Source of the DNA: a bacterium
GTDB taxonomy: Bacteria > Electryoneota > RPQS01
Length of the DNA: 64,000 nt
Direction: 5' to 3'
NCBI GenBank assembly: GCA_023382385.1
Contig: JAHDVH010000001.1
Location: 248,001-312,000 of the forward strand
Below the pieces are notes generated by a model. The model worked only from the letters and a program-made list of their open reading frames with translations. It did not search any database and was not told the origin of the DNA. Of this stretch, positions 23,102 through 50,202 are shown piece after piece. Every line of letters begins with the position of its first letter. Positions within the stretch are counted from its first letter, which is position 1. The position numbers were made by a program, and so were the translations under genes.

Positions 23102-24277
23102 ATGAGCATCGACACGGCCTTACCCTTAGCATTAGTTATTGCCATTTCTGTGGTAATTCTCGGGCCTGCCATAATCTGGTTCGTAGGGCTGGTGAAATGG
23201 GCATTAGAGGACTCTGCCGTCAGAAGCCAGCCTCCCGCCGACGTTTCGTTGGCCGTAGCAGTGGTAGGTAGAAACGAAGAGGCAACAATTGGCAGATGTC
23301 TGGAATCAATCCTGAAACAGGAAGAAGTCTGCCTGCAGCAAGTCATTTTCACGGACGATCAATCCGAGGATTCTACCCTGCGAGTCGCCCTTGAGTTTGC
23401 CACTCAAGACAACAGGCTGCTTGTTCGACAGCAAAGCGATACCTTGCTGAAGACAGGCGCAAGCCCTAAAAAGACCGCTCTTTCGTTTGCATTCACCGAG
23501 CTGCAGACAGACTTCATCGCCGTCACGGATGCGGACTGTATTGTCCCGGTAGCATGGCTTGCCGGTCTTACCTCGTATGCAGATAGCGAGACGGGATCAG
23601 TAATAGGCCCTTCATGGCCACTTGCTGACACAGGACTCAAAGCCCGTTTCTACCGATGGGAACGTCTGTTAGCGAACGTCACGATGGCCTCTGCTTGCGG
23701 CTGGGGATTCCCCGCATCTGCCTGCGGCCACAGCCTGCTATATCGAAGAAAGGCATTGATTGAGGTTGAAGCTCCCGTGCGACGCGACCTGCCCTCCGGT
23801 GATGACGACTTGACTGTCCAAGCTATTGCTCGGAAAGGCTGGAAGGTTAGATTCTCTGGTGCGCCGGAAAGTGTGGTAAGAGAAGCCGGAGTGCGTGGAT
23901 CTCTATTTGCCCAGGCTGCCAGACATCAGAGTGTGACTCGTTTCTATCCGGTGCGCTGGAGAATCCTCTATGCCTGGTCAGCAGCCGCCGGGATGCTATC
24001 TTTTCCTTTGCTCTTTGCCGCCGCGATAGATCTATCCTACATTGCGTTATCTGGTACAGTAATTCTCAAAGTCATAATAGAATCGGCAGTCGGGTACTGG
24101 TTTGCAAAGAAGCTAAGACTTGGGATAGGACTGCCAGAGACAATCGCAGGTGTGGCATTCCTCCCGGCTTGGACAGCTTGGCGCCTATCTGCCCATACTT
24201 TCTCAAGAAAGCAAGAATGGCGGGGACGTCGATTCTCGACACGTTCCGATTCGACATTGGAACCGATTCGTACATGA
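23102..24277 (+). CDS. Membrane glycosyltransferase, family 2
   Basis: The 391-residue protein starts at the ATG that begins MSIDTALPLAL; the frame is open 35 codons further up but this would pass through the promoter. A TM helix (~5-30) precedes a GT-A domain with AVVGRNEEATIGRCLESIL, the DADC metal motif (~140) and SGDDDLT (~235). The usual QxxRW motif reads QAARHQ. Two or more TM segments follow (~290-350), and the C-terminus is basic. The layout is that of membrane GT2 enzymes that transfer sugars to lipids or extend polymers. First gene of a five-gene operon; it ends with an ATGA overlap. Confidence 0.82.
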   Translation: MSIDTALPLALVIAISVVILGPAIIWFVGLVKWALEDSAVRSQPPADVSLAVAVVGRNEEATIGRCLESILKQEEVCLQQVIFTDDQSEDSTLRVALEFATQDNRLLVRQQSDTLLKTGASPKKTALSFAFTELQTDFIAVTDADCIVPVAWLAGLTSYADSETGSVIGPSWPLADTGLKARFYRWERLLANVTMASACGWGFPASACGHSLLYRRKALIEVEAPVRRDLPSGDDDLTVQAIARKGWKVRFSGAPESVVREAGVRGSLFAQAARHQSVTRFYPVRWRILYAWSAAAGMLSFPLLFAAAIDLSYIALSGTVILKVIIESAVGYWFAKKLRLGIGLPETIAGVAFLPAWTAWRLSAHTFSRKQEWRGRRFSTRSDSTLEPIRT

Positions 24278-25299
24278 CCCCTGAAGCTTCGGAAATGGCA
24301 TTAGCTGCAAATCCACCAATTCCTGATCAGCGATCTCTGCTCCCAAGGATCGTGAAAATCGTGGTTACACTAGCAGTTCTCGGACTGCTGGTGTATCAGG
24401 TCAATTGGGAGGGCGTTCTCGTAAGCCTGTCTCAAATTGCAGGATGGGGGATTGTGGTCGCGCTCTTGCTTTGGGCACCTAACCAGTTCCTCCAGTATCT
24501 GCGCTGGCGACTAATAGCCCAACGGGCAGGTGAATCCGTCAGTATAGAGGACATCCGCGCCAGCTATTGGCTTGGCCACACTTTGGGCTTTATCACTCCC
24601 GGTCGAATCGGTGCATACGGACGTGCGCTGTTTCTTTCGCAAGTACCTCTCGGCAGAGCGGCTGTACTTACTGTCGTGGAACGCACATACAGCGCTTTGA
24701 CGGTTAATGGTTTTGGTTTAATTGCACTTGGTGTTTTGCCTTATCTTGGGTGGAATGTAAGCTGGGTATTCTGGAGCGGAACAATTTCAATGCTCTTCGT
24801 ATTGTCCGGCTTTCTCCTTATTTGCATCGGTATTTTCCCTGGGAAAATCGTGTCGCTACTGCGGCGTGCATTTTCAACAAGGGCTTGGGCTGCACGCATG
24901 GTTTCGTCCCTTGATGCGGCTGCTCAAATTGGTACGGGCAGTGCGCTTCTGTATCTTTCTCTCGCGACACTATCGCTAATCATCTCCTTGTTCCAATTTG
25001 TTCTAATACTGGAAGCAATTGGAGTTGATATTCCGCTGATCGCAGGCATGCTTGCAGTACAGTTGAATTTTTTCCTCAAAGGCAATATTCCGCTCACGCT
25101 CGGAAACGTTGGAGTCGGAGAGTGGACAGCGCTCCTATGCCTTAGAGGATTGGGAGTTGCGGACACTCACGCTGTCGCTGCTTCTCTCATGCTCTTCACG
25201 TTAAACGTGGCCTTGCCCGCAGGCATTGGACTGCTATTCATAAAGCGCATTTTTGCTCTGCCAAAGAACTGGAGATTAAAGCCCTCTGGAACTCTATGA
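24274..25299 (+). CDS. Flippase-like (LPG synthase TM / UPF0104) integral membrane protein
   Basis: From the ATG in the ATGA overlap the protein has 341 residues. It consists almost wholly of hydrophobic segments: about eight by eye, starting at KIVVTLAVLGLLVYQVNWEGV. The segment WAPNQFLQYLRWRLIA and the GFITPGRIGAYGRALFL motif (~105-120) are typical of the AglD/UPF0104 family, whose best-known member region is the flippase half of MprF. In glycan clusters such proteins are often thought to flip or position lipid-linked sugars. The tail TLGNVGVGEWTALLCLRGLGV is also family-like. The substrate here is unknown. Confidence 0.8.
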   Translation: MTPEASEMALAANPPIPDQRSLLPRIVKIVVTLAVLGLLVYQVNWEGVLVSLSQIAGWGIVVALLLWAPNQFLQYLRWRLIAQRAGESVSIEDIRASYWLGHTLGFITPGRIGAYGRALFLSQVPLGRAAVLTVVERTYSALTVNGFGLIALGVLPYLGWNVSWVFWSGTISMLFVLSGFLLICIGIFPGKIVSLLRRAFSTRAWAARMVSSLDAAAQIGTGSALLYLSLATLSLIISLFQFVLILEAIGVDIPLIAGMLAVQLNFFLKGNIPLTLGNVGVGEWTALLCLRGLGVADTHAVAASLMLFTLNVALPAGIGLLFIKRIFALPKNWRLKPSGTL

Positions 25300-25324
25300 A
25301 CTACTAGCCATTGTCATTGCAATC

Positions 25325-26527
25325 ATGACGGCCATGTATGCTGCCATAATGGTCCTGTTCGCGCTAGGACTCCGCAGGTTGCACCGGAACGTCATTCAAG
25401 ATCCTGAGCATTGGCCAAGCGTTAGTGTCATCATGCCCGCGCGTAACGAGGCCGAAGTTCTACCTTGGACGCTTTGGTCATTGATGCGTCAAGACTATCC
25501 AGGGAAATGGGAAGTAATTGTCGTTGACGACCGTAGTGACGACAATACTCAGAGTGTTCTAAGCGACCTTCAGAGTAGATACCCGAATCTTAGATCAGTG
25601 CGCATCGACGAGCTATCTAACGGATCACCAAAGAAACGGGCCTTGTCAACTGGAATTGCAGCTTCCGATTCAGAAGTCATTTTTACAACGGATGCGGATT
25701 GTCAGTATCATAGGGAGTGGATTAAAGAGATGGTCAGGCATCTCAATGGCAAAACCGCTGTCGTAGCCGGACTTACGATCTTCGATCTGCCTGACTTCAA
25801 CTCATCGCCCCGTTGGCAAAAGATTCAGTGGCTTGACTTTTTCGTGCAGAATTTTCTTGCAGCAGGAGCGCTTGGATGGGGACATGCCGCAAGTTGCAAC
25901 GGTAGCAACCTCTGTTTCAAGAGATCAGTCTATGATGACATTTCGGGATATGGGAACACAGCTGACATAGTATCAGGTGATGATGTACTATTTGCGCAGC
26001 GTGTTGCAAAACTATCCCAATACCGCATGGCATTCTCCATCTCGCAGGAGACACTGGTCCGCTCATTGCCTGTGAACTCATTCGGTGGGCTGCTTAACCA
26101 GCGTCTGCGTTGGGCTTCAAAGGGACTTAGTTATCGCGGGAGCATGCTGTTATTCTTGTTTGCAATATATGCCTATTACTTAATGCTCATTGTGTTACCT
26201 GTTGCAGCTGTCTTTAAGACAGTGTTGGTACCTTACGTTCTCGCGATTTGGGGATTGAAGATGGTGGTAGATACGTATCTTGTAAAAACAGGCTGTTCAG
26301 TCTTTAGGCAGAATCGACTTCTCCCTTACTTTCCAGAGTATGAGTTCTGGCATACCTTTGCAACACCATTCTTCGGCATCGCTGGACTCTTGATGCCATA
26401 CAGGTGGAAAGGCGACTGGTACCGAACCGCTACCCTGCCATCGCCACTTAGACATCGCTGGTTAAGAAACAGCAAGCATAGAGAGACTACAGCGGAACGC
26501 GCCTCAACTCTTGAGTCTCGTCGATGA
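25325..26527 (+). CDS. Membrane glycosyltransferase, family 2
   Basis: The 400-residue protein has an N-terminal TM segment, VSVIMPARNEAEVLPWTLWSL (~38-58), the DADC metal motif (~120), SGDDVLF (~217) and the processive-type QRLRWASKG (~258), followed by TM segments (~275-330). It therefore looks like an active, possibly processive GT2. I use the ATG at 25325, but the frame is open for 13 more hydrophobic codons to a CTG (25286), which would make a longer and more normal first TM helix; the ATG lacks a good ribosome site. It ends overlapping the deacetylase gene by 4 bases. Confidence 0.83.
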   Translation: MTAMYAAIMVLFALGLRRLHRNVIQDPEHWPSVSVIMPARNEAEVLPWTLWSLMRQDYPGKWEVIVVDDRSDDNTQSVLSDLQSRYPNLRSVRIDELSNGSPKKRALSTGIAASDSEVIFTTDADCQYHREWIKEMVRHLNGKTAVVAGLTIFDLPDFNSSPRWQKIQWLDFFVQNFLAAGALGWGHAASCNGSNLCFKRSVYDDISGYGNTADIVSGDDVLFAQRVAKLSQYRMAFSISQETLVRSLPVNSFGGLLNQRLRWASKGLSYRGSMLLFLFAIYAYYLMLIVLPVAAVFKTVLVPYVLAIWGLKMVVDTYLVKTGCSVFRQNRLLPYFPEYEFWHTFATPFFGIAGLLMPYRWKGDWYRTATLPSPLRHRWLRNSKHRETTAERASTLESRR

Positions 26528-27171
26528 TGCGACTAAACCGAATTGCGCCCTTTTTCGCTTGGGGATGGAAGATTCGTACAGAAAGACCTGGGACTATTGC
26601 AATTACGTTTGACGACGGTCCTGATCCAAGGACTACACCATTTCTTCTAAGAGTACTCGATGACTTGCAATTGAAATGCACTATGTTTGTTATCGGTCAG
26701 AAGTGCATTAAACAAGCCGCCTTGTTGAGAGAGATTTCTTCAGCAGGTCATCATATAGCCTGCCATGGATTCGTTCACACTCGACACTCCTTTCGTACGG
26801 CGAAATTCCTGCTGAACAGCATCAACCAAACTCAGATCACCTTGGCGGAAGCGGGCGTTAGCATGGCGAAGGCATTTCGTGCACCTTACGGCTCTATCGA
26901 TTTGTCAACACATCTGAAGGTGACCAAAGCTGGTTTACAGCCTGTATTGTGGTCTGTTCATATTGCGGATTGGAAGGCTTCAGATTCAAACATACTGCTT
27001 TCAAGGACGCGAAGGGTACTGCATGATCAAATGATCCTGCTCTTGCATGACGGTCATCCAGCAAGCACAGCTTTAGGTCCCACACTCCACTTCCTGAAGA
27101 GTGAGATAGAAAAGCGTCGCTGGTTAGCCGTACCCTTGCCAGAGACGTCGCGCAAGTCGGAGGCATGTTGA
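26524..27171 (+). CDS. Polysaccharide deacetylase (NodB homology domain)
   Basis: The 215-residue protein is a carbohydrate esterase family 4-like enzyme. The catalytic and metal motifs are visible: TFDDGPDP (~28-36), the metal-binding HGFVH (~82), FRAPYGS (~118) and LLHDGHP near the C-terminus (~176). No signal peptide is evident, so it may act on a cytoplasmic lipid-linked sugar or be held at the membrane through its hydrophobic start. Coupled by 4 bases to the glycosyltransferase before it and by 7 to the one after, so deacetylation of an N-acetylated sugar made by these enzymes is a reasonable inference. Confidence 0.88.
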   Translation: MMRLNRIAPFFAWGWKIRTERPGTIAITFDDGPDPRTTPFLLRVLDDLQLKCTMFVIGQKCIKQAALLREISSAGHHIACHGFVHTRHSFRTAKFLLNSINQTQITLAEAGVSMAKAFRAPYGSIDLSTHLKVTKAGLQPVLWSVHIADWKASDSNILLSRTRRVLHDQMILLLHDGHPASTALGPTLHFLKSEIEKRRWLAVPLPETSRKSEAC

Positions 27172-28274
27172 TTACAGGATTTGCAGTAGTATCAAGTTTG
27201 CTGCATTTCTTTGCAGGCATCGCAATCTCACTTGCGCTTTTGAAGAAAAGACCACGGCTTGATGCCTCACCATTGATATCAATTGTGGTTCCTGCTCGCA
27301 ATGAGGCTCACAATCTGCCTCGACTTTTTGGATCTCTTCGCAAGCTGCATTATCCTGCCGACAAGATTGAACTCATTCTCGTTAACGACGACTCTACGGA
27401 CGACACAGAGCAAGTCGCCGAGAACCTCGGGAGATCATTGCCGTTCAAGTTGCGTGTCATCCGTGCTGAACACGGTCCTCGGGAGACCTTGCCGCCAACG
27501 AAAACACTCCCTCTAGCACAGGGGATAGATGCCGCAACAGGCGACTTTGTCCTGATGACAGACGGGGACTGTGAAGTCAACCCGGGTTGGGCACAAGACA
27601 TCGTTGCACATTTCCAGCCGGGTGTTGGACTAGTCTGTGGTGTCACGTTGCCCGATTATAAGTTGTCGCCGGATTCCGTGACGAAGCTCGAGACAGTGGA
27701 TTGGGCACTTCTACTGGGTGTTTGTGCCGGTATGTGCCGTCTTGGCAGTCCATTGGCCCTCGTTGGAAATAACTACGCAGTTCGTCGTGAAGCTTATCAC
27801 GATATTGGAACTTTTCGCAGGATTCCTCATAACCGCATTGACGACATCGCGCTTTTCCGCGCAGTAACGGAGTCCAAAAAGTGGCGACCTGCATTTGCAG
27901 TCACACATGGTGCTACCGTTGCAACACTCCCTGTCTCCAGCATGCGGTCCATAGTTACTCAGAGGTATCGCTGGATGGAGGGATTTGCGGCGGTTACTGG
28001 CGCTGGCAAGCTCTTGTTCGCTTTTGGACTTCTCAATCACCTGCTCTGGCCACTTGCGTTTCTGCTTCCCTTTCCTTTGGGGATCTTCATTGTAATGGCA
28101 GTACTGGTCGGAGACTGGATGGTCATCTCCACTTGTCTCCTTCGGCTGCGTCGCGATGGACTTACGCTCGCAATCATCGGGTATCCACTGTTTGCGTTTG
28201 CTTACGGATGGAAGCTGGTTAGCGCGCTTTTCCGAAGGCCTGAAGTCACATGGAAGGAGCGAAAGTTCGCCTGA
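27165..28274 (+). CDS. Membrane glycosyltransferase, family 2
   Basis: The 369-residue protein is a third GT2 of this operon and paralogous to the one two genes upstream. It has an N-terminal TM helix (~3-25), SIVVPARNEAHNLPRLFGSL (~39-58), DGDC (~130), a DDIALF motif (~228) and QRYRWMEG (~268), then two or three TM segments (~280-340). The key motifs are intact. It overlaps the deacetylase gene by 7 bases and is the last gene before a clear terminator. Confidence 0.85.
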   Translation: MLITGFAVVSSLLHFFAGIAISLALLKKRPRLDASPLISIVVPARNEAHNLPRLFGSLRKLHYPADKIELILVNDDSTDDTEQVAENLGRSLPFKLRVIRAEHGPRETLPPTKTLPLAQGIDAATGDFVLMTDGDCEVNPGWAQDIVAHFQPGVGLVCGVTLPDYKLSPDSVTKLETVDWALLLGVCAGMCRLGSPLALVGNNYAVRREAYHDIGTFRRIPHNRIDDIALFRAVTESKKWRPAFAVTHGATVATLPVSSMRSIVTQRYRWMEGFAAVTGAGKLLFAFGLLNHLLWPLAFLLPFPLGIFIVMAVLVGDWMVISTCLLRLRRDGLTLAIIGYPLFAFAYGWKLVSALFRRPEVTWKERKFA

Positions 28275-28344: not shown

Positions 28345-29442
28345 CTAACGAATTCGATACATAAAGCCAATGCCGACCTCCCGCCTCACAAAGTCCTTAA
28401 CCTGCGCAAGTTTTACATAGTCGGACTGGCTTGAACGCTCCTCGTACGTGAAATACAAGTTGACATCCCAAGCTTGACTCGGACTCCACCCTATCGACGG
28501 GGTTAACTCCCAACGAGTATCCAAGCGGCCTCTGTGAAACGGATCTGATTCCAGTGAACGTTCAGTCGTATAGACTCGTCTTCTAATTCGAGAGGAAAGT
28601 GCCGTATTGACTGATTCAGCTTTATAGACTTTCACTCTCGAGCGAATCGCAAGGCGAAACTCATCCTCACTAAAATCACCATCACCATACTCGGTGTCCT
28701 CGACAATCAACTGCCCTTCGTCTTCGGAAGTAAATACTAACGGAAGTGACTTGCCGACATTGTCCGAAATTCTTCGGGTATATCGCGCAGTGACCCGAGG
28801 ACTCCATGGTGTTGAATAATCTGCCTCCAACCCGATATCCTGATATTCTGAATCGTACTCCGTGAATCGTGAACCATAGTAGAAAGTCCCGTAGCCTACT
28901 TGCGCGCGCATCCAGAGCGGGTCTGCCAGTTTGTATGAGAATTCCCCGCTATACTCCCAGTTCTCGAATCGACAGTCATCGTAGGTTCCGAAGTCCCGAT
29001 CCCTGTATGCACGGAGGTAGAATGATGGGATCGTAAAAACGCTTGCGCGAGCTGACCACTTGTAGCCTCTCACCCGAGGCCTGACATTGGCACTAAAGCT
29101 ATGCGTCTGGTAATTGGTATGATCATTCTGTACACGCTGCGTTGCCTTGAAACGGTAATTGACATTTACCATTGTCATCGCCGGCGCACGCCACTGAAGT
29201 GTGGGCGCAAGCAATATCTCCGTCTCTCCATCGTCCAGTGTTTCCATCGGCGTCCTGAACGAGGGATCGAATCTCTTGAAAGCCAGTTGATCTGACTTTG
29301 AGAAACGCAAGAGATTGTCATTGTAGATGGCACTAATCCCGGCACGAAGGCCCCACTCCAACTTCGGGTAACGACGTTGCGCCTGGGCTTGCCCGGCAAC
29401 AAAAATGAGCACCGCAAACAGTAGTGTTACGCGTAGACTCAC
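28345..29442 (-). CDS. Outer-membrane beta-barrel protein of the poly-gamma-glutamate operon
   Basis: The 365-residue protein starts with a signal peptide (LRVTLLFAVLIFVAGQAQA, cut near residue 21). The rest is an alternating polar-aromatic pattern with many Tyr, Trp and Arg and repeated strands such as WSARASVFTIPSFYLRAY and MRAQVGYGTFYYGSRF. This is the pattern of an outer-membrane barrel of perhaps 14-18 strands by eye. I do not recognise a named family. It ends YRIR rather than with the usual aromatic residue. It overlaps the preceding gene by 4 bases and is the last gene of the pgs operon; a role as outer-membrane outlet for the polymer is inference. Confidence 0.6.
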   Translation of the reverse strand: MSLRVTLLFAVLIFVAGQAQAQRRYPKLEWGLRAGISAIYNDNLLRFSKSDQLAFKRFDPSFRTPMETLDDGETEILLAPTLQWRAPAMTMVNVNYRFKATQRVQNDHTNYQTHSFSANVRPRVRGYKWSARASVFTIPSFYLRAYRDRDFGTYDDCRFENWEYSGEFSYKLADPLWMRAQVGYGTFYYGSRFTEYDSEYQDIGLEADYSTPWSPRVTARYTRRISDNVGKSLPLVFTSEDEGQLIVEDTEYGDGDFSEDEFRLAIRSRVKVYKAESVNTALSSRIRRRVYTTERSLESDPFHRGRLDTRWELTPSIGWSPSQAWDVNLYFTYEERSSQSDYVKLAQVKDFVRREVGIGFMYRIR

Positions 29443-30353
29443 TCTTGCCCGTCTCCAGTCAACTCTTTTGATGGCAGCAAGAAACGCAACAATGAGGTTC
29501 GGCGGTCATCAGGAAGCCTGAATTCGTACACGTGCTCGCCTGCTGGAACTTCGACAAAGAAAGTTTCGGCACGACTTGGGACAAACTTGGACGGCAGCTT
29601 ATATTGAATGACGTCGCTCGTACTTGCAGCCAAACTGTACGTCTTCTTCAATTTTCCGTCTTCAATCAATTGAAGTCGCCAACGCTGGCTTCCTTTCATT
29701 TCGGGACCAAACTCAATCCTGCTAAGTACCTTCAGAGTTGCTGGACCAACGAGATGAAGCGCGACCCGATCTTCTCCACCGACCCTATAGTACGTATAGA
29801 TTGTCTCATTTGTAACCAGGTCGACCGCTGATGTGTACTCGAACGGTGTCATTGGAACCACGGACGTGCGACCAGTAAACTCATTTGTCTTTTGCGAGAG
29901 ACGCACCAGCACACGATCTTTCGAACCTTTTGGCAGTTTGATCACTACTTCGTGTTTCCCAGAAGGAATATCCAGTACCTTTGATCGAAGCACACCAAGA
30001 TAACCCTCGCTCCCGTCTGACATATCTGCTTTCTCAGACAGTTTGCTCGTGTGGCGAACTAAACGAGGCTTCTTACCATCGTCAATAGAGACCTCAAGAG
30101 TATAGTTGGGCGTCTCGGTAGCCGACTTGAGTTCAAGTCGCGACATCACTTTCAGCTGAGACGGTCCCTCGACCGTGACACTAACTTGACTATACTCGGT
30201 AAGGACGAAATAGGTGCGGGACTTGCCGGCAATCGTAAGCTTCATCATTTGGTCAAAATATGAAGGCTTAAGATACTTGAAGCCGTTATCGGCAGCGATT
30301 GCCGAAACAAGCAGGCCAGACGTCAAGAGTGCAAGGATTACGTATTTGCGCAT
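29439..30353 (-). CDS. Exported two-repeat protein of the poly-gamma-glutamate operon
   Basis: The 304-residue protein has a signal peptide (MRKYVILALLTSGLLVSAIA). The mature part is an internal duplication: residues ~35-160 and ~170-295 share the pattern YF.V.....V.V.GP..LKV.SR.E, then a lysine-rich stretch, then IPSGKHEV or VPAGEHVY and a final L.RL...K. The repeats look like beta-sandwich domains. No known family is recognised. It is coupled to the beta-barrel gene by a 4-base overlap and follows pgsW by 20 bases, so it is very likely a periplasmic part of the same system. Confidence 0.6.
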   Translation of the reverse strand: MRKYVILALLTSGLLVSAIAADNGFKYLKPSYFDQMMKLTIAGKSRTYFVLTEYSQVSVTVEGPSQLKVMSRLELKSATETPNYTLEVSIDDGKKPRLVRHTSKLSEKADMSDGSEGYLGVLRSKVLDIPSGKHEVVIKLPKGSKDRVLVRLSQKTNEFTGRTSVVPMTPFEYTSAVDLVTNETIYTYYRVGGEDRVALHLVGPATLKVLSRIEFGPEMKGSQRWRLQLIEDGKLKKTYSLAASTSDVIQYKLPSKFVPSRAETFFVEVPAGEHVYEFRLPDDRRTSLLRFLLPSKELTGDGQE

Positions 30354-30373
30354 TGTGACATTTGTTAGTTTGC

Positions 30374-31495
30374 TTAAAGTAATGACTCAGGATCAACGCC
30401 CGCGTCGGCAAGACGAAAATACTTGGCATCGATACGAATTAGTGTGAATAGCGCCGCTAAAGCAAGCAAGAGCGCGGCGGCAGCCACGCGTACATCGTAC
30501 CTTTCCGTCGTAAAGACATCGCCAAAACCAGGCTCTGCAAGTGGAATTCTGGGCGCGCCAAGACCGTAGTTTCTGGCAACTCGTGTCATATCGTAGAGAT
30601 GAATTACTTGAACACCTTCATCAGCCGCAAGGTGCATTGCGCCACGTGCAGGCCAGTTCCGGGCAGGCAGTCGGCGATGCACGCCATCTGAAAGTAATCT
30701 CCCATTCTCTGAATGACCTGTGCTGGCTACCCCTTCGCCGATGTTTATGTATGCCGCATATTTCGGACCCTTGATAGCTCCCTTAAACGATTCCCACCAG
30801 ACTTTCGCGGCTTGATCGGCAGATTCTGCGGTCAGCAGAGGTAGACCAGCCCGATGGGCAGCGGCTTCCAGTTCTGCTCGACCAGCACTTGAGAGTCCTG
30901 TTGCAGCATCATCAAGGCCGCCACGTGATGCAGCTACCGCTTTCGCAGAGAGGGTCTTCTTGTCGATTAACAAGCGCTGCATGTCAACCCACGTGAAAAG
31001 GGGATCGTTTGCCCCCCACCAAGTCGAGCCGATCGATGTGATGGTATTGGCTTTAACTCCGAGGACTTCGCAAGCGCATAGTACAGCAAGATTTGCTCCG
31101 GGATTTGATCCGGTCATCGCGACGGCGACCTCATCGCCTGACTTTAGCCCAGCCTCCAAAAGAATTTGTACGGCCGCAGCAGCGAAATTCGGATTCAGCC
31201 CATTGAGCTTAGCTTCAAAGCTGCCAATATCAGTTGTAATCGTCGAAAACTGTTGGCCTACAAGAGCATCCAATCGAGGATCGCCATAAGACTCAATTGC
31301 TTCAAAATTCCTTGCGGGACTCGCGGCAAGAGCGTTCATGGACTCATTCATTAACTGGGCAGCGGCAAGTTTCTGATCGTAGTGCGGTTGCTTCACTTCT
31401 ACGATATTGAATTCGGCCCACAGGTAGAGTCCGTAGCAAACCACCGCCATTGCAATAAGCGTCCAAATGGATCGAAGACTTGGCCTAAACGCCAT
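30374..31495 (-). CDS. pgsW: Poly-gamma-glutamate system protein PgsW
   Basis: The 373-residue protein has an N-terminal TM helix (~10-28) and a C-terminal one (~333-352), with an extracytoplasmic domain between. It matches what I know of the PgsW family (poly-gamma-glutamate system protein, TIGR04332): the GEGVASTGHSENG and RRLPARNWPARGAMHLA stretches and the position after pgsC are typical. The domain also holds VAVAMTGSNPGANLA and a Trp-rich ITSIGSTWWGAND. Its activity is not established. It overlaps pgsC by 11 bases. Confidence 0.82.
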   Translation of the reverse strand: MAFRPSLRSIWTLIAMAVVCYGLYLWAEFNIVEVKQPHYDQKLAAAQLMNESMNALAASPARNFEAIESYGDPRLDALVGQQFSTITTDIGSFEAKLNGLNPNFAAAAVQILLEAGLKSGDEVAVAMTGSNPGANLAVLCACEVLGVKANTITSIGSTWWGANDPLFTWVDMQRLLIDKKTLSAKAVAASRGGLDDAATGLSSAGRAELEAAAHRAGLPLLTAESADQAAKVWWESFKGAIKGPKYAAYINIGEGVASTGHSENGRLLSDGVHRRLPARNWPARGAMHLAADEGVQVIHLYDMTRVARNYGLGAPRIPLAEPGFGDVFTTERYDVRVAAAALLLALAALFTLIRIDAKYFRLADAGVDPESLL

Positions 31496-31940
31496 GGTAT
31501 ATCACTCCGCCCGTAACCACGATAACCAAGAGCTTAACAATAGGCGCAGCGATCAGCATCATGGCAAGAGTCTTCACTACTCCCTGGCGTTCAAACCAGT
31601 TTGCAATTAGTCCAGGGATAATGAAGCCAATTGCCTCAAGTCGAATATCAGCAACCATGACGTCATTCAAGACGAGGTTTCTGCTAAGATAGCCGAAAAT
31701 AAAGCCGAACATAATAGCGAGAACCATTCTACGTCGCCCATAAACGAACATGAATCGGGAGACTAACCGAATACAAAGGTACGCAATGAAGGCAACCGAG
31801 AAAGTACCAACCATGCGAGCCGGATCGTTCAAATGCATCGCAATATAGCCGGGGACGACAATACCGCCGGCCGCTGCGCCCACCAGCTCGTGAAAAAGCA
31901 AGCTGATTAAGACACCAAGGCCAATAGTAAGCTCAATCAT
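31485..31940 (-). CDS. pgsC: Poly-gamma-glutamate biosynthesis protein PgsC/CapC
   Basis: This 151-residue integral membrane protein has four to five hydrophobic segments. The family start MIELTIGLGVLISLLFHELVG and GGIVVPGYIAMHLNDP (~27-42) are intact. With PgsB it forms the membrane-bound polymerase that makes poly-gamma-glutamate. It lies 3 bases after pgsB and overlaps pgsW by 11 bases. Length and position are typical. Confidence 0.93.
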   Translation of the reverse strand: MIELTIGLGVLISLLFHELVGAAAGGIVVPGYIAMHLNDPARMVGTFSVAFIAYLCIRLVSRFMFVYGRRRMVLAIMFGFIFGYLSRNLVLNDVMVADIRLEAIGFIIPGLIANWFERQGVVKTLAMMLIAAPIVKLLVIVVTGGVIYHGV

Positions 31941-31943
31941 CTC

Positions 31944-33167
31944 TTAATGTGCCGGATTAGAGTTCCCATTGGAATTTTGTGCACCGATTCCCTTACGAAC
32001 GCGGCGCTTATTAGCAAAGTATGTCGCGATGTCAAGTCCCCCCTTCCCAACATTGCCCATTGCGAACACAGTGCCGATATTAGACACCCGTTCGAAAATC
32101 GCATTATAGGTTACCGATGGGACATTCATGCCAATTCGGATAGCCTTCGCCTGATCAATGTTGTATTCGGGCAAGCTGTTGTATACTCTGTCTAAGTTTT
32201 CACCGTTGAGCAGAAGATAGTCAAATTCACCGACTAAATGGTCCCGAATCATTTCGAGAAGTTGAATGGTCCTGTCGTATCTGTCCGCGCGGGTATTCAA
32301 CATGAACATGACAGTGCCAACTTCCGTCGAGAGTTCCTTAACTTTGTGCCAAATTGCCAGCGTAGACATCGGATCATTTGCCGCAAGCGCATTGATGAAC
32401 TGAACAACTTTGCCGTTCTCTTCTGTTTCGAGTACCTTCAAAGCGCCGGGATCAGGGAAGGCTGCGTACATGCCCTCAAGAGCAACTTCGCGAGGCACGT
32501 GGTAGTGTTCGCAAACGGCCAATGCCAATGCAACATTGTCGGCATGCTCAATATACGAAAACCTGCCCAATTCCAAATACGATACACTATCAGAGTTGAC
32601 GCGCCAAAGTCGACAATCAGCCTTCTCCGCTTCTTTGCGCATCAGCCAAAACATATTCTGCTCTGCCGTATAAGCCACGCCGCGTATCGGGAGAGTATTA
32701 CACAAAGATCTGGTTACGTTCTCGAGTGTTGGCCCCATTTCGAGAATGTGATCCAATCGCGTGTTTGTGACAACGCCCACCGTTGCACGAACGAACCGAT
32801 GCTCGCAAATCCATTGATACTCAGGATTCACGGCCATGCACTCAATGACAATCGCTTCCGGATTGTACCTTGAGAAGTACCGGAACACTTTCACTTGTTC
32901 GATGATATTAGCGCCACTACGGCGCCGAATAGGCAATTCAAGTCCATCTTCACGGATTATTCGAGGCAGTGTTCCGGTTGTTTTCGCCAATGTCCGAATA
33001 CCGCCCGCGCGCAATCCCGCGGCAATCAGACGCGTAACCGAAGATTTACCGCGTGTACCGTTAACATGGATGCGGATTGGAATTGATTTGACGCGCCGCT
33101 GGTGCTGGAGATACTCCCAGATAGCGTACGCAAGGAAGGCGGAGAAGGCGAGGAAGAGGAAGACCAT
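31944..33167 (-). CDS. pgsB: Poly-gamma-glutamate synthase PgsB/CapB
   Basis: PgsB is the ATP-dependent amide ligase that adds glutamate to the gamma-linked chain. The 407-residue protein has an N-terminal TM helix (~2-18) and a Mur-ligase-like fold: ATP loop VNGTRGKSSVTRL (35-47), AKTTGTLPRIIREDG (~61), RRRSGANIIEQ (~78), ECMAVNPEYQ (~104) and VTNTRLDHILEMG (~127). All the motifs I expect are present. It is the first gene of a five-gene operon with its own promoter. No PgsA/CapA homologue is in the operon. Confidence 0.94.
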   Translation of the reverse strand: MVFLFLAFSAFLAYAIWEYLQHQRRVKSIPIRIHVNGTRGKSSVTRLIAAGLRAGGIRTLAKTTGTLPRIIREDGLELPIRRRSGANIIEQVKVFRYFSRYNPEAIVIECMAVNPEYQWICEHRFVRATVGVVTNTRLDHILEMGPTLENVTRSLCNTLPIRGVAYTAEQNMFWLMRKEAEKADCRLWRVNSDSVSYLELGRFSYIEHADNVALALAVCEHYHVPREVALEGMYAAFPDPGALKVLETEENGKVVQFINALAANDPMSTLAIWHKVKELSTEVGTVMFMLNTRADRYDRTIQLLEMIRDHLVGEFDYLLLNGENLDRVYNSLPEYNIDQAKAIRIGMNVPSVTYNAIFERVSNIGTVFAMGNVGKGGLDIATYFANKRRVRKGIGAQNSNGNSNPAH

Positions 33168-33220
33168 CGCTACAGGGCAGGAAGCACTTCTTGGTCAGTG
33201 GGCGATAGTTATAAAAACGT

Positions 33221-33249
33221 AATATAACAATGAGTTCCGCAGATGTCAA
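33221..33249 (-). promoter_or_regulatory. Promoter of the pgs operon
   Basis: TTGACA and TATATT on the minus strand are exactly 17 bases apart. The predicted start is ~47 bases before pgsB. The -35 box overlaps the end of the rodZ-like gene. It is the closest match to a sigma-70 promoter seen in the window. Confidence 0.75.
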
Positions 33250-42100: not shown

Positions 42101-42213
42101 TCAGTTTCAAAGGTCTTCCAGACAAGATGCGGGCGAGTGAATTCTGCTGTCTGTGAAAGCGTCGGCGACACAGTTGTCACACAGATTAGAACGCAGAGCA
42201 ATAGAAGTTGCAT
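39106..42213 (-). CDS. Metallopeptidase-beta-propeller-outer-membrane barrel fusion
   Basis: From the ATG at 42213 (TGATG overlap with the previous gene) the protein has 1035 residues. Signal peptide (~1-20), then a gluzincin-type peptidase domain with HEYTH (H124, E125, H128) and a later WFAEGTAQY (E184), the three expected zinc ligands. Residues ~310-600 hold WD40/TolB-like blades (FSHDGTKLAFVSNSG, SPDGSRIAVGHH). The last ~400 residues are a D15/surface-antigen-like barrel (GGLPGMRGYSFYSLGGTRTAIGTVTYRFP). The C-terminus has a short tail with SCGCSRC after the last strand. The frame is open upstream to 42318, but those residues lie within the previous gene and lack a signal peptide. Exact substrate unknown. 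Confidence 0.78.
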   Translation of the reverse strand: MQLLLLCVLICVTTVSPTLSQTAEFTRPHLVWKTFETDNFVVHFTEGLEEVAFLAADIAEEIHEPLCRIYDYRPDTKVSLIFSDEDDVANAGAYFQSNKIKFYATSMAWDFRGTHNWLRNVVTHEYTHMIQLGASRKWSRRFPAIYIQALGYEPERRPDVLYGYPNTLVSWPLPSVTIPAWFAEGTAQYQFKGTGYDFWDSHRDMLLRQAVLANRLLSFEDMGFFGKTSLESEGVYNQGYALVKYIADRSNGVVTLADISHKMSSAWPVTLNDAIASVTGKAGIEWYREWKRDIEVQYRYVKENLEPYFTVADTMDKKGFVGFYPRFSHDGTKLAFVSNSGREYFGQSSLYVYDLRSDSTKLVVGGVQGGISWLPDDSGILYAARSTKNPHGALLHDIYLYTFSDKKTIRLSRGLRAESVDVSPDGRLLVLTVNEEGRRDIAIASMPDHKVKVRPFGLGDLLMRVPSLPHEQFYLPRWSPDGSRIAVGHHLREGRSVRIYEFMSESNSISLLNEFEGNGGELRDPTWSSTGDSLYVSYDESGIANIYRLSIKDGNLDRLTVVLGGAFYPAVRGEKLAYSEFCGDGFRICVADSPSVVRLPRSALDEAESYLARVPKNEVALRGVQRETEPYRPRFESLYWFPRIAFDYNKFKPGTYLLLNDVLDKLTFIGGAAVNQDREYDLYGLAEYREFYPTIFAEYFNVQRRMTSFFADSSRIIGEEEIGGRPSPLFDQYRIRYRYNLNEVSVGVGIPLVATANVKTRATYDQYVAHNRFDDETSVSLTYFKGWSWKTGFYLDARRPGILTNISPSSGYRGFVEYTRANHNFISDIEVGGDAVGLREIYDPNNYNLFEAGLERYFKSPIQIHSMEVRLRGGFIDENVDPFFYQYAGGLPGMRGYSFYSLGGTRTAIGTVTYRFPMIKRAAINLWPVSLNRVYGSLFADIGDAWTGEYGARSPKKDIGGGLRMQLHSFYSYPTAISFDVAYGLDKFDVVEDNVRTSYGEEVRYYLTVLFDFYTPIIPPARHPSSCGCSRCAQY

Positions 42214-45179
42214 CAACGCACCACAGCAATCTTGACTTCTGCTGAGTGGGTTTGCCCACCTCCAATGGCCTCGACACGACCAATATAAACACCGCTCTGA
42301 ACTCCTGACGCCTTCCACGGAATCTCAAACGCACCTGCTGCAGATGAGGAACCGCTTACCTCCGCAATTCGCCTGCCCGCAATGTCAAAGATCGATACGC
42401 TCGCTCTTGCTGCGTATGGAAGTGTTAGTCGGAAATTTGCAACACTATTGCTTGGGTTTGGCCAGACGTAAACAAAACTCTCCCGCTCATGTACTTGTGG
42501 CCTCAATGGTCCGACGACAATGATGTTATCCGGTGCATGGTAGACTACATTAACAGTACCTTCAGGCGAAATTGGAAGCCGCATTACATTCAGCGTCAAC
42601 TGCTCGCCGTTCTTGACTTCCGTAAAAATATGGTAGCGGTGCTCAGAGTTGCTTAGACGAATCAACTTCGGATCGCCGTTGATTGCGAGCGGGAAGTCTG
42701 GGAACCTGTTCGTATTGTGATCATATGCCACCAATTCACGGCCAGTTAGACTGCTCTCAGCGTTTGAAAGCACAACCAATCGCAATATATCCGGATCGCC
42801 ATCGAAATTCAAATCAAAAACTTCGCTTGAAGTTACATCATTCAAGGCAAAATTCTCTCGTGGCACACGGGCTGCGCCGTCGACACCTCCGCCATCAACT
42901 CTCCCGTCGCCGTCCCAATCGACTTCCGGCGGAAGACAATCACTAACGTCGCATATCAACTCTCCGGTCTCCGCGTCAAGATAGCCGACCCCGGGGAAAA
43001 ATATATTCGATCGCGTCACTTCCTGGACGATGACAGGATAGTCTAGCAGTTGGAAAAACTCAGCACTCCACTGGAGCAAGAGAGAGGTCGAAATTTCAAA
43101 TCGATGCACCGAGTTACTATCCCATCCAATGAGATATCGCGCGGGGGGAATCTCAAGATATGTGAAGTTAGGAATATATTGCAGTGAATCAGGAATCGTT
43201 CCAAGGAGTTCAAGGTTTTCGTCGTAAACGGCACCTAAATGACTTCCGGTGAACACATAGCGTGTCGCACCTGTGGCATCCCGACAAATAAACACCTTTT
43301 CAGCACTAATTGCCCCCTGTGGCAGCGGCCGAAAGACAGAATCCATACCATGCTCAGTTCTCTGAATCAAGCCGATCTGACTGCCAACGAAAGTCAATAC
43401 CTTGGCAATTTCAATCGTGGTCTTGCCTGTATTGCTCAAATGGGAACCTGACGGAACCGTCAGTTGATAGACGGCACCGCTGTCAGCCACAAGGAACAAT
43501 GAATCGTGTGCTTGCACATATACTTCGCGTCGCCCGTCCTGATCGAGATCAGCGGCGGACCAGTGTGCCGCGGAATCACTAACATGAATCGGGAAACCAC
43601 GTTCAACAAGCGTTCCTCGAATTCTACATGTCATGACAGGAGCAACACTGGAGAAGTCAGATATCTCGAGGAATGTATATGCATGGTCACTTAACCGAGC
43701 CGAAGGCCGTGTGTTATCATTGAATCGAACAAAAACAGTACCGCCGTTGGCATCGCGGAATGCGCGATTCTCACGGAACCAACAGTCTTCTTGAATCCCA
43801 AGTTCGGTACCCGATCCGGATGAGGCAAAGCCGTACTCGCGACCAATGTCCTGCGAGCCGTCGGCTTCAACTAAATCAACTCCACGCCTATTGGGATCAA
43901 TATTTACGCGGTTTCTGCCAATCCCTTCTGCAATCACTTGCTCATTTACGTGCCAAATAAGAATACCGCTTCCAGGGATACCGTAGTCATAGTGCGTAGC
44001 TCGTACCGGCACGCGGAATTCATCTTCCACGAAAAGATTCCCGCCGCGATCAATGTGCATTGTCCTGCCATCTCTATCCTCAACAGTCACAAATCCTATG
44101 GAATCTGCATCTGCATCGCGGTTTTCGAGCAAGTAGTATTCGCTTCCGCTTACCGGGACCTTCACAATCTTGGTCCCGGACTCGCCAAAACGCCCAATCC
44201 GTACTGTGTCACCGATTCCAGAAGGGTGAATGACTTGCGGAACATCCCAACCCATATAGATTCTCGACCAGGCGTCCGGCAACGCGGGAACGATGGCATT
44301 CACGTTTCCCGATCCTTGATCCATCATGCCCCAACGGCCGATTCCGCTCGCACCAGTTTCTGTGTTATAAAGATCCGGCATCCCGAGCCAGTTCCCAAAC
44401 AGTTTGATCATGACCCCATTCAATGAAAGTTCGATCCCAAGGTCAAGCGTCTCGTTCTGATTCTGCGATTCCGGCAAAATCAGTCCGCGTGTGACTCCGG
44501 CAGGAATCGCGCCGCTTATACGTGTTAGATCATCCTCCGAAATATATGCGGAAGGAATATCAAACGGCGTGTTGTCAAAACCTACATTGAAGTCTTTTCC
44601 CACTCCTGCATGGAATAGGATAATGGCATCGTATTCGGTAAAGTCTATGTCGGTCTCAGCTAACCTCATTGACTCGACAAAGAGCTCGACCAATCGCATA
44701 TTCAGTAGTGCGGTATCCGAATTGTAGTTGTAATGCCACATCGGATGCGCTAATTGATACGCTTCCGTGGCACCATCCGGATACACGTCAAGACTTGCAA
44801 ACGATATGGATCCTCGCGACGCGGTGGAATAGTAGTCGGCGAGAAACGCCAGGTGATCCTCGAAGTATGCTTTGTCATGTGGAAGTGGATCGATTCTTAA
44901 AGTGTCAGGAAGTCCCGAACCGAATGTTCCATTTCCTGTTGTTCCGGACAGTTCATCGGTCTGAAACTCGACGCGAACTGCACACAGTCGAATCGGCAGA
45001 CCGACTGGCCAACGATCATCAAGCCGCGATGGCGCACATTGCACGAAGTTATTCGGCAGCGCCGTTCCTGCCCATGCAGGCGACAAGGACGACAGCAGTA
45101 CTGCGAGAAGGACAATAAACAGGTTAGAACTCCACGGAAAGCGAATAGCGCATTGTGTCAGTGAGAGGATGATTCTCAC
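42213..45179 (-). CDS. M6-type protease homologue with dead active site and T9SS-like C-terminal domain
   Basis: The 988-residue protein starts with GTG and a signal peptide (cleaved near 38). The region around 259-285 aligns with the immune-inhibitor-A (M6) signature HExGHxLGLPDLYD and GIGxWdlM, but reads KLFGNWLGMPDLYNT and GIGRWGMMDQ: the two His and the Glu are replaced by Lys259, Leu260 and Asn263. FG-GAP/VCBS-like stretches follow (DLDQDGRREVYV, DWDGDGRVDG, DLNFDGDPDI). The C-terminus (VWPNPSNSVANFRL...SGVYIGRVEA) is the type A sorting or FlgD-like domain of type IX substrates. Its start overlaps PorV by 56 bases. Likely a surface-exported, non-catalytic protein. Confidence 0.75.
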   Translation of the reverse strand: MRIILSLTQCAIRFPWSSNLFIVLLAVLLSSLSPAWAGTALPNNFVQCAPSRLDDRWPVGLPIRLCAVRVEFQTDELSGTTGNGTFGSGLPDTLRIDPLPHDKAYFEDHLAFLADYYSTASRGSISFASLDVYPDGATEAYQLAHPMWHYNYNSDTALLNMRLVELFVESMRLAETDIDFTEYDAIILFHAGVGKDFNVGFDNTPFDIPSAYISEDDLTRISGAIPAGVTRGLILPESQNQNETLDLGIELSLNGVMIKLFGNWLGMPDLYNTETGASGIGRWGMMDQGSGNVNAIVPALPDAWSRIYMGWDVPQVIHPSGIGDTVRIGRFGESGTKIVKVPVSGSEYYLLENRDADADSIGFVTVEDRDGRTMHIDRGGNLFVEDEFRVPVRATHYDYGIPGSGILIWHVNEQVIAEGIGRNRVNIDPNRRGVDLVEADGSQDIGREYGFASSGSGTELGIQEDCWFRENRAFRDANGGTVFVRFNDNTRPSARLSDHAYTFLEISDFSSVAPVMTCRIRGTLVERGFPIHVSDSAAHWSAADLDQDGRREVYVQAHDSLFLVADSGAVYQLTVPSGSHLSNTGKTTIEIAKVLTFVGSQIGLIQRTEHGMDSVFRPLPQGAISAEKVFICRDATGATRYVFTGSHLGAVYDENLELLGTIPDSLQYIPNFTYLEIPPARYLIGWDSNSVHRFEISTSLLLQWSAEFFQLLDYPVIVQEVTRSNIFFPGVGYLDAETGELICDVSDCLPPEVDWDGDGRVDGGGVDGAARVPRENFALNDVTSSEVFDLNFDGDPDILRLVVLSNAESSLTGRELVAYDHNTNRFPDFPLAINGDPKLIRLSNSEHRYHIFTEVKNGEQLTLNVMRLPISPEGTVNVVYHAPDNIIVVGPLRPQVHERESFVYVWPNPSNSVANFRLTLPYAARASVSIFDIAGRRIAEVSGSSSAAGAFEIPWKASGVQSGVYIGRVEAIGGGQTHSAEVKIAVVR

Positions 45180-46170
45180 CGGCCGTTAGGTAGCTGAAGT
45201 CAAATCTATAGGTACTATACTTAAGCGAGACGCCGAACGTATACGGAAAGACGCGGCCTAAGTGGTCGTTGTAGTATCCGCCACGAAGCCCCACAAGTGT
45301 AGAATACCAGTACTCTGCACCGAGATGCCAGATCAGGGACTTGACAAGATCTCCGTCACCCCAAGCCGAAAAAAGCGCTTCATAGAATTCATCCGAACGA
45401 CCAAGATTGTCACGCTTTACCAATTCCTTGTCAACGTCCGTTGCCACGGTCAGCTTATTGTACTCTTGGTCCAGAACCTTAAACGCAAGACCAAGCTTTA
45501 ACGTCGTTGGCAGTGGATCGGCTTGCGCTCGATCAATATACGACACTTTCGGACCCATGTTAGAAAGGTTTGCACCCAAGGACAGCCCTGGCATGAATGT
45601 AGCTTTGTAAAGCAAGCCGAGATCGGCCGCTATTGCCGTTGCTACGCCCTTCCCTTGCTCTGCACCGGCGCCTACTGGAGACAGATTACTATATGCCAGC
45701 TTTAGCGCGACGCCCATAGAGAGATTCTCATTCACCAAAGCACCATATGTACCTGTGACTGCCATCTCGTATGACGAAAATGTTCCAAGATCCTCACCCG
45801 AGGGACCAGTCCTTTGAGTCTCACCGAGGTTCAGAAACATCACATTGCCACCGACGGTTCCCCACTCTGGTATATAGTACGAACCACCAACAAACGCGTA
45901 ATAGAGGTCCGACAAATTGAATTGCGGTAACCAGCGGGAATACATCATTGTCACTTCGTTCTTGGTTTGGAAACCAAGACCGGCGGGATTCCACCACGTC
46001 GCCGTTGCATCATCAGCAATTGCAACAAACGTCTCTCCCATTCCTGCAGGTCGCGCTCCGGGTGCAATCTTGAGGAAAAGCAGCGTCGCTTGACTGACAC
46101 TGGCCGCATAAACTTGCGAAGCCATTAAGCCAGCAAGAATGACGCAGATTGCAAACATCCTTCTCTTCAT
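45124..46170 (-). CDS. porV: PorV/PorQ-family outer-membrane protein
   Basis: The 348-residue protein has a signal peptide (cut near residue 22) and then LKIAPGARPAGMGETFVAIADDATATWWNPAGL (in pieces ~32-65), the clear hallmark of the PorV/UPF0164 family. The rest is a barrel of the FadL type and ends in Phe (SLSVEF), the classical BamA signal. In Bacteroidota PorV shuttles type IX substrates to the PorU sortase. An AGGAG ribosome site precedes the start. It lies 32 bases after porU and overlaps the next gene. Confidence 0.88.
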   Translation of the reverse strand: MKRRMFAICVILAGLMASQVYAASVSQATLLFLKIAPGARPAGMGETFVAIADDATATWWNPAGLGFQTKNEVTMMYSRWLPQFNLSDLYYAFVGGSYYIPEWGTVGGNVMFLNLGETQRTGPSGEDLGTFSSYEMAVTGTYGALVNENLSMGVALKLAYSNLSPVGAGAEQGKGVATAIAADLGLLYKATFMPGLSLGANLSNMGPKVSYIDRAQADPLPTTLKLGLAFKVLDQEYNKLTVATDVDKELVKRDNLGRSDEFYEALFSAWGDGDLVKSLIWHLGAEYWYSTLVGLRGGYYNDHLGRVFPYTFGVSLKYSTYRFDFSYLTAGENHPLTDTMRYSLSVEF

Positions 46171-46202
46171 GTGATCTCCTACCTATATTTCAGTTTTCTT
46201 CG

Positions 46203-49200: not shown

Positions 49201-50159
49201 GCATATGGGCTTGCGTGACCGTGGTCACCAAGCAAACTGCCGTCAGCGTAGTCATAGCCCTTGAGACCTTCTGCGTAGAATAGAATTCGGTCACCGGAGT
49301 CCATTCTGCCATCTCCGCCATCTTCCACAAGGATTGCATTCTCTCGAAGAAGCGAGTCCGGAACGGACAACAATCCTGACGGGAGCATCCGACCACCATT
49401 ACCAAACACCTTGATTTGACTCGATGTGACGCCAATCACAGGAACACCTTGCTGCTGCAACCACTCCGCTGTCATGGCATGCAATCCAGCTTCCGTAACT
49501 CCAAGCTTGTAGAGCTGAAAATCTGGCCAAGATTCAGTATCATCGAGCCTGCTAACGGGTGACACAGGCAATCTCCACCAGCGGGTCGCGTTATCGCCAT
49601 TTAAGGTAAGTGCGCGCAGAAGTTTCTCTTCGCGCGGATATGGTCCTATCGGTACGGTCGCACCCTCAAAAATCACCTCTAAATCAAGAGATGTCAGGAT
49701 TTTGGTACTCCCCCCTTCGGTCTCGGCAACTCTCACAGCAATATGGGCGATCTGAAATCCGCGCCACGCTTCAACAGCGCGCAACGTGACGGCCGACTTT
49801 GGTGCTCTTTCGTCTTCATTTGCAGCAACCTCAGCGTCCGGTAACAGTATCTCTGAGACTTGGTACCTTATTCCCCGATTAACAATCCTCGGAGTTGTTC
49901 CGATCGGACACGCCACAAGCAGGACTTGAACAGGAATTAGTCTCCCGTTTTCCGGCATCCATTCCACGGACGTTATAAGCGATTCCAATCTTGTGTCTGG
50001 ACCTTTAGAACCCAGATCAAGATTGGGCGACCAAAGTGCTTGAAACCTTTCTGCGGTCGACTCAAGAACTACCGCTGACGATGCCAGAACCAAACTTGTA
50101 ACGCATGTTCCAAGCAGGTAGGCCAAAAGTCCAAGATATCTGTAAGATTGCTTCGTCAT
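46203..50159 (-). CDS. porU: PorU-like type IX sortase, peptidase C25 (gingipain) family
   Basis: From the ATG at 50159 the protein has 1318 residues. A signal peptide (~1-28) is followed by a long N-terminal beta region. The C25 domain shows the catalytic dyad: His812 in INYVGHGNERVW and Cys847 in VIVAGTCTWGGFDRP, as in PorU of Porphyromonas. The C-terminus has a FlgD-like/CTD domain (NWPNPMSDETYF...GVYFYRV). PorU cleaves the C-terminal signal of type IX substrates and attaches them to lipid. The frame is open for 15 more codons to an ATG at 50204, but these would encode the terminator hairpin. No good ribosome site is seen at either ATG. Intact dyad. Confidence 0.85.
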   Translation of the reverse strand: MTKQSYRYLGLLAYLLGTCVTSLVLASSAVVLESTAERFQALWSPNLDLGSKGPDTRLESLITSVEWMPENGRLIPVQVLLVACPIGTTPRIVNRGIRYQVSEILLPDAEVAANEDERAPKSAVTLRAVEAWRGFQIAHIAVRVAETEGGSTKILTSLDLEVIFEGATVPIGPYPREEKLLRALTLNGDNATRWWRLPVSPVSRLDDTESWPDFQLYKLGVTEAGLHAMTAEWLQQQGVPVIGVTSSQIKVFGNGGRMLPSGLLSVPDSLLRENAILVEDGGDGRMDSGDRILFYAEGLKGYDYADGSLLGDHGHASPYATENVYWVGVDPAGMPGLRMGTLPEFSSSSTQVSTITGRNYVDQDLYIYAAGSDQTNSGIIWYMATLDAQTERSFSINLEAANTGRGMLRLRMRGSGIGGGFDVRVNDQYVSQGVFSDPLVIQVPAGVFAAGNNVIRLTNRSASGQIHLNYIEVEYERAVQTSSGTIEIISPSGSDWYGYQVTGLDASSYLLDVSDPLMPRVRRGSSFSDSSQAGALRRYWATSPSRIRTPLFRGRKVFDAADYARLRSSQNEAGIIIVTYAAWYEELEPLLDMHAQYEEEPLRAVRVKLSDIFDEFSGGVYDPVAIRNFLRYAYLNWRGPAGQAEPPRYVLFVGDGDYDYRNLLSNTDDNWMPPWENGGVCTDDYYVDFDDSATLLDMISGRWPVQSAQEVRAIVEKTVEYALRPFYGAWKNTATFVADDEWKEGRCAEDFHTTDSENLINEVLPNYFTFRKIYGILYPFRQSSSTSQKPDATRDLLETINNGTLLINYVGHGNERVWTDEQMFVMDRDFPMIRNERVWPVIVAGTCTWGGFDRPNERCFPELLLGGRYVGSVACIAATRFTFVNQNQQLTEVFYEEVFRQGIDRRQSLGEALQLVKPLRSNNSLYHCLGNPVLRLATPEYYAYVDQRDDSLQAGALFTLSGYVSQSSGTLEANLKKLPTDRSLDEDVWTDFHGIVEARVFDSEDSAAYYFPLRTNCSVPSQIPYYYGLPGNAIFRGRSSIVNGRFNVTFRVPRDIQYGGENAKVSLYFYGKSESEQDSADGIGIEQPLRIASQAAVVTDSIPPQIEAWLENTSFRSGDQVSRTPRLIVRLSDESGINLSGEVGHRITVRIDDAQAEDITQFFNYDINSHIEGELVRTLGPFSDGPHQMTIEAWDSFNNLNLKRFDFVVGQSAEEGFAIRDVLNWPNPMSDETYFTYSLTQDGARDVRIRIYTMTGKQVDEIDGLGVRQLYNSNSNRPWHGRDREGRELANGVYFYRVIAQHERGFSAEATGKLVILR

Positions 50160-50164
50160 CTCGT

Positions 50165-50202
50165 AAAATAAAAAGCCGAACCGGGCGAGCTGCCCGTTCG
50201 GC
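50165..50202 (-). terminator. Intrinsic terminator directly before porU
   Basis: On the minus strand an 11-pair stem (GCCGAAC plus GGGC, loop AGCTC, one bulged G) is followed by TTTTTATTTT. The T run ends 5 bases before the porU ATG. It is a textbook terminator in an unusual place: between a promoter candidate and the gene it should serve. Confidence 0.8.

Follow-up and report, generated by a model that had tools for sequence, protein, structure and literature searches.

A poly-gamma-glutamate operon of Candidatus Electryoneota with genes for a predicted periplasmic protein and a predicted outer-membrane barrel, candidates for polymer export

A five-gene operon for poly-gamma-glutamate (PGA), with the order pgsB-pgsC-pgsW-Rep-Bar, is located on the minus strand at 28345-33167 of a 64-kb stretch of contig JAHDVH010000001.1 (assembly GCA_023382385.1, positions 248,001 to 312,000). 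This stretch is referred to as the window, and coordinates are positions in it. The host genome of 2.9 Mb belongs to the phylum Candidatus Electryoneota of the Fibrobacteres-Chlorobi-Bacteroidetes (FCB) group, other contigs of which carry older labels, e.g. Calditrichaeota, KSB1 and LCP-89; the host is a diderm by Omp85. Rep and Bar denote an exported protein with a duplicated domain and a predicted outer-membrane beta-barrel. With a probability of about 0.7, the five genes are those of a single trans-envelope machine for making PGA and delivering it to the surface of the diderm cell, and we infer that Rep and Bar are the best candidates for the exit of PGA from a cell with two membranes. The gene identities, conserved gene order, co-occurrence, domain fusions and predicted folds on which this reading draws were observed directly.

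A preliminary description of the window, made from the sequence alone, had recognized the operon, and all of its open reading frames (ORFs) were recovered in place (Table 1). The junctions are +3 (pgsB/pgsC), -11 (pgsC/pgsW), +20 (pgsW/Rep) and -4 bases (Rep/Bar), negative values being overlaps. PgsB scored 403 bits against TIGR04012 (cut-off 223), PgsC 122 bits against TIGR04011 (cut-off 96), and the product of the third gene 246 bits against TIGR04332, 'poly-gamma-glutamate system protein' (cut-off 100). PgsW has hydrophobic segments at the N- and C-terminus with a large periplasmic domain between them, and occupies the place of PgsA/CapA. No CapA/PgsA (PF09587) is encoded in the operon, in agreement with the preliminary description; the sole PF09587 protein of the genome, a secreted protein of 978 aa, is encoded far away on contig 3 in an unrelated setting. 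Rep and Bar gave no match above cut-off in NCBIfam or Pfam.

The near-consensus promoter noticed earlier is an exact TTGACA-17-TATATT, with the -35 box at 33249-33244, the -10 box at 33226-33221 and a spacer of 17 bases. It ends 53 bases before the pgsB start, and the -35 box overlaps the end of the RodZ-like gene upstream. No other site in the window combines a 6/6 with at least a 5/6 box match. The promoter is conserved in relatives: one of the same genus has the identical box pair 54 bases upstream of pgsB, and four others have TTGACT-17-TATATT 26-68 bases upstream.

Table 1. Features of the PGA operon (window positions)
Feature	Description	Position	Strand	Evidence
Promoter	sigma-70-type, TTGACA-N17-TATATT	33221..33249	-	exact match
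pgsB/capB	poly-gamma-glutamate synthase, Mur-ligase-like ATPase, P-loop GTRGKSS	31944..33167	-	TIGR04012 8e-121
pgsC/capC	polytopic membrane subunit	31485..31940	-	TIGR04011 1.8e-35, PF14102 8e-35, both above cut-offs
pgsW	inner-membrane protein	30374..31495	-	TIGR04332 5e-73, above cut-off; alignment
Rep	exported, two tandem jelly-roll domains (predicted) resembling carbohydrate-binding modules	29439..30353	-	signal peptide, homologous halves, model, Foldseek
Bar	predicted 14-strand outer-membrane beta-barrel	28345..29442	-	signal peptide, model, Foldseek, strand alternation

Conservation was surveyed in 386 genomes (G), 39 of them from Electryoneota, with CapC counted above cut-off. CapC, Rep and Bar occur together in 37 of the 39 Electryoneota genomes, and all three are missing from the other two, G006 and G007 (80% and 88% completeness). 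Over the whole survey CapC was found in 75 genomes, Rep in 59 and Bar in 61. CapC is present in all 61 Bar genomes and neither gene in 311 of the 386 (Fisher 7e-58); outside the phylum, 24 of 24 Bar genomes have CapC (Fisher 1e-27). Rep and CapC are found together in 57 genomes, or 59 with G178 and G315, which were added by a broader profile. For 49 of 62 Rep matches, CapC is encoded 1.1-1.7 kb upstream on the same strand and pgsW separates the two, and Bar is kept in the genome even where it has been relocated away from pgsC. The pair is thus not found beside unrelated genes in most relatives, and the outcome that would have refuted the preliminary description did not occur. At three loci (L190, L191 and L193, in G041, G328 and G189) Rep lies outside a PGA operon, alone beside other genes, which in G041 encode seryl-tRNA synthetase, a sensor kinase and a response regulator.

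Named genomes yielded no PgsW match with a single-protein query; loci (L) were found with an alignment query. Of the named loci, 73 have PgsW linked to PgsB or PgsC; in 71 of these Rep and/or Bar are among the next genes, and after the addition of three missed Rep genes 61 of the 73 have both. Most other loci of the set stop at a contig edge. The two with neither gene are L147, a contig end, and L161, apparently from genome G189, in which Rep and Bar are on other contigs. Absence of Rep from L119, L134, G178 and G315 was rejected as an artefact of ORF picking or profile sensitivity. Host names are labels of metagenome-assembled genomes (MAGs), single ones of which may be wrong; they comprise Bacteroidota (Bacteroidales), Cloacimonadota including Ca. 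Tenebribacter, Zixibacteria, Fermentibacteria, Latescibacterota, Ignavibacteriota, Chlorobiota, Fibrobacterota (a Fibrobacter-labelled MAG) and KSB1. PgsW, Rep and Bar follow in at least nine Cloacimonadota loci, L106 and L128 among them, and the Ca. Tenebribacter operons L128, L135 and L156 carry Rep and Bar. The same gene order recurs in dozens of independent genomes, and chance clustering was rejected on the co-occurrence statistics and this recurring order.

In L075, L140, L146, L189, L200, L201 and L202, Bar carries a fused Rep domain as an N-terminal extension; five of these extensions aligned with Rep at E 6e-22 (hhalign). In L146, PgsW and Rep also share one 685-aa frame with the transmembrane part retained, a single case in which a stop may have been lost by assembly error. 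L122 and L143 (672 and 676 aa) were rejected as Rep-Bar fusions: their extra 306 residues have no similarity to Rep and result from spurious translation of GC-rich DNA upstream, Rep being encoded there in another frame. The Rep-Bar and PgsW-Rep fusions suggest a physical complex, and since Rep is joined both to the Bar N-terminus and to PgsW, it was placed in the periplasm.

The halves of Rep are homologous (hhalign E 1.6e-28, 22% identity), as proposed in the preliminary description, and its model is all-beta (pLDDT, a per-residue confidence score, of 91.4). The best solved structures matched by Foldseek are tandem CBM51 and CBM22 modules, with the crown of BcsB, from the cellulose secretion machinery, further down at ranks 23 and 27; a weak match to Pfam AMPK1_CBM was obtained for 7 of 34 Rep members. 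A fold of this kind is that of a binding module, which would also suit a pair that retains PGA as a tether, anchor or capsule-organizing unit at the outer membrane or surface, with the polymer crossing by another pore. In 30 of 85 loci a C25 protease gene immediately precedes pgsB; it is suggestive of surface assembly and points the same way. However, Rep has a signal peptide and is fused to the periplasm-side N-terminus of Bar and, once, to the inner-membrane PgsW, and the locus has no other conserved outer-membrane exporter. Retention is considered unlikely, though it is the strongest of the rivals to export by a trans-envelope machine.

The Bar model has 14 long strands (pLDDT 87.7, predicted template-modelling score (pTM) 0.81), each with a hydrophilic and a more hydrophobic face. 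The exported repeat protein and barrel read from the sequence earlier are in this way returned by structure prediction, as a periplasmic beta-domain protein and an outer-membrane barrel. Over the alignment, the lumen-facing hydrophilic positions hold 472 Lys/Arg versus 355 Asp/Glu, and several basic residues of the barrel are invariant, e.g. R144, R289, R336 and K349; the predicted lumen is polar and slightly basic. The best solved Foldseek matches are OmpG and CymA, with PgaA, the outlet for poly-N-acetylglucosamine (PNAG), at rank 14. Like these monomeric porins, which are its closest solved folds (TM about 0.5 on the Bar query), Bar has 14 strands; unlike them it is confined to CapC genomes and encoded in a PGA operon, and no sequence match to them was found even by profile search of PDB. 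Searches of PDB with Bar, Rep and PgsW profiles returned nothing significant. OPX/Wza-type and TPR-type exporters were rejected for the operon for want of matching domains: Poly_export (PF02563, the Wza and outer-membrane polysaccharide export (OPX) family) did not match the five operon proteins and hit 1 of 34 Rep members at the chance level of E 0.027, and no tetratricopeptide repeat (TPR) was found in Rep or Bar.

A second, secreted PgsW-family protein (TIGR04332 1e-84) is encoded at G000:C3:229175-230086 (L033:5860-9901), with the gene of a gamma-glutamyltranspeptidase lipoprotein (PF01019) on one side and that of a DctM-type transporter (PF06808) on the other. These three genes, which look like a locus for cleaving and taking up PGA, occur together in several genomes of the family; by their content they would tie the PgsW family to gamma-glutamyl chemistry a second time.

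This locus bears on two further explanations. One is that Bar and Rep import or recycle PGA fragments, synthesis and uptake genes being combined in one operon. OmpG and CymA, the best structural matches of Bar, serve uptake as diffusion porins, but the conserved trio already looks like the uptake side and is separate, and Bar occurs only where a CapC gene exists; import is very improbable. The other is that the product made and exported by PgsBCW-Rep-Bar is not high-molecular PGA but another polymer or short gamma-glutamyl chains. PgsA/CapA is missing and replaced by PgsW, of unassigned activity, and Rep resembles carbohydrate-binding modules. Against this, PgsB and PgsC exceed the equivalog cut-offs for PGA synthesis, and the PgsW paralogue between gamma-glutamyltranspeptidase and transporter genes in the same genome points to gamma-glutamyl chemistry. 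A different product is accordingly rated as improbable, less so than import.

For the trans-envelope machine the following path is proposed. PgsB and PgsC would polymerize glutamate in the cytoplasm and pass the chain through the inner membrane, where PgsW, anchored in that membrane in place of PgsA/CapA, would receive it. Rep would hold or guide the chain across the periplasm, and its exit through the outer membrane would be by way of Bar. PGA as the polymer of this organism, a complex of the proteins and outward transport are suggested by the PgsB and PgsC families and by analogy with BcsA-BcsB-BcsC and PgaCD-PgaB-PgaA. In the Bcs, Pga and Alg systems an inner-membrane synthase is combined with a periplasmic polymer-binding component and an outer-membrane barrel outlet (PgaA, BcsC, AlgE), and BcsB is the periplasmic polymer-handling subunit of cellulose secretion. 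The present operon has the same layout, with jelly-roll domains in Rep as in BcsB and a predicted barrel outlet, and an outlet role of the Rep/Bar pair is likely. Differences are a synthase that is a Mur-ligase-like amide (peptide) ligase and not a processive glycosyltransferase, and the lack of a TPR scaffold in the all-beta Rep and in Bar. No sequence similarity of the operon proteins to Bcs, Pga or Alg proteins was found. Because sequence homology, a glycosyltransferase synthase and a TPR scaffold are all absent, the unit was not filed as a member of those systems, and the analogy would be one of design. The Bacillus PGA synthases PgsBCA(E) and CapBCA(D)E share PgsB and PgsC, by curated models, and an inner-membrane-anchored third protein next in the operon; here PgsW (TIGR04332) stands in the PgsA/CapA place, and two extra genes would serve the periplasm and outer membrane of diderm hosts with Omp85.

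Export is favored by the circumstance that a diderm must move the polymer over the outer membrane, and operon-bearing Cloacimonadota have been reported in a PGA-like matrix. Several points count against it. The evidence for PGA in Cloacimonadota rests on staining. The charge bias of the Bar lumen is modest, and the whole-protein charge of Bar changes sign between members. The likenesses found by Foldseek are at fold level only, with TM about 0.5 for Bar and a low whole-chain TM for Rep, the latter because its two domains are flexible. Pgs-like genes and Omp85 occur without Rep or Bar in about eleven genomes of distant diderms; some diderms therefore do without the pair, a different route exists for them, and the pair is not universal.

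CapC without Bar was found in 14 genomes, all outside Electryoneota, and eleven of them are the distant diderms just described. G225, G256 and G355 were rejected as carriers of PGA operons, their CapC lying inside multidomain proteins of 800-1053 aa with no PgsB nearby, and Omp85 in all hosts lacking Rep and Bar led to the rejection of a monoderm envelope for them. In the PgsB tree the operons without the pair are mostly on separate deep branches (L174; L076; L177/L079/L172/L168), with one nested clade (L169/L175/L178); the remaining rows come from truncated loci or from genomes that encode Rep and Bar at another site. In L168 (G192), genes for a DUF6305 protein and a DctM-like transporter come after PgsBCW, possibly a different arrangement used by a diderm. 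Close diderm relatives with pgsBCW but without the pair, which would have refuted the preliminary description, were not found, as 37 of 37 CapC genomes of the phylum have Rep and Bar; some distant diderms do have pgsBC(W) alone. Operon coupling and co-occurrence support Rep and Bar as the outlet candidates named in the preliminary description; the outlet function itself we infer.

The C25 (gingipain/PorU-like) proteases encoded directly upstream of pgsB, on the same strand, have 1100-1280 aa, and those scanned carry a type IX secretion tail. Their loci (L106, L108, L144, L158 and 26 others) belong to Bacteroidota, Cloacimonadota and Ignavibacteriota, and LVIVD-repeat, GH53 or similar genes often come after Bar. 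The host genome has the type IX secretion protein SprA (G000:C2:119211) and nine C25 domains. The minus-strand genes at 42213-50204 of the window are probably the PorU-PorV part of this system; they encode, in this order, a 1333-aa C25 protein, a PorV-like barrel protein of 348 aa and a metallopeptidase-like protein of 988 aa that has a sorting-like domain at its C-terminus. A convergent operon on the plus strand (24169-28274) encodes an LPG-synthase-type membrane protein, two family-2 glycosyltransferases and a polysaccharide deacetylase; it stays beside the PGA operon in several family members.

In the open-access literature no description of an outer-membrane partner for PgsBC or PGA export was found, in line with the preliminary description. 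The CapsuleFinder PGA model shares the CapB and CapC core, which is mandatory, and adds CapA (accessory), CapE and CapD as others, with no outer-membrane component (PMC5542703). A 2026 paper on Cloacimonadota describes cells embedded in a 4',6-diamidino-2-phenylindole (DAPI)-stained PGA-like matrix and lists the same operon as three genes, CapB-CapC-CapA(PgsF), further genes being unmentioned (PMC13082233). CapBC was noted in Ca. Tenebribacter from Ace Lake (PMC8542988). Fusobacterium nucleatum is cited, in a reference within PMC4497714, as the first Gram-negative shown to produce polyglutamate.

It is conceivable, as a tentative extension, that PgsW-Rep-Bar represents the first case in diderms of a trans-envelope apparatus dedicated to secreting a polypeptide capsule polymer, and that it evolved independently and in parallel to Bcs and Pga. 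In Bacteroidota and Cloacimonadota it might be coupled to a type IX C25 protease or sortase-like enzyme that works on surface polyglutamate or attaches proteins to it.

The passage of PGA over the outer membrane is addressed neither by the CapsuleFinder model (PMC5542703) nor by the Cloacimonadota paper (PMC13082233). With a conserved operon, strict co-occurrence and fusions, the two purifiable proteins make the question of the outlet directly testable. With Rep and Bar as marker genes, extracellular PGA can be predicted in the large uncultured phyla of diderms, among them the Cloacimonadota of anaerobic digesters. If the proposed export route is true, it would solve, independently and for a second time, the problem that the cellulose and PNAG secretion systems solve.

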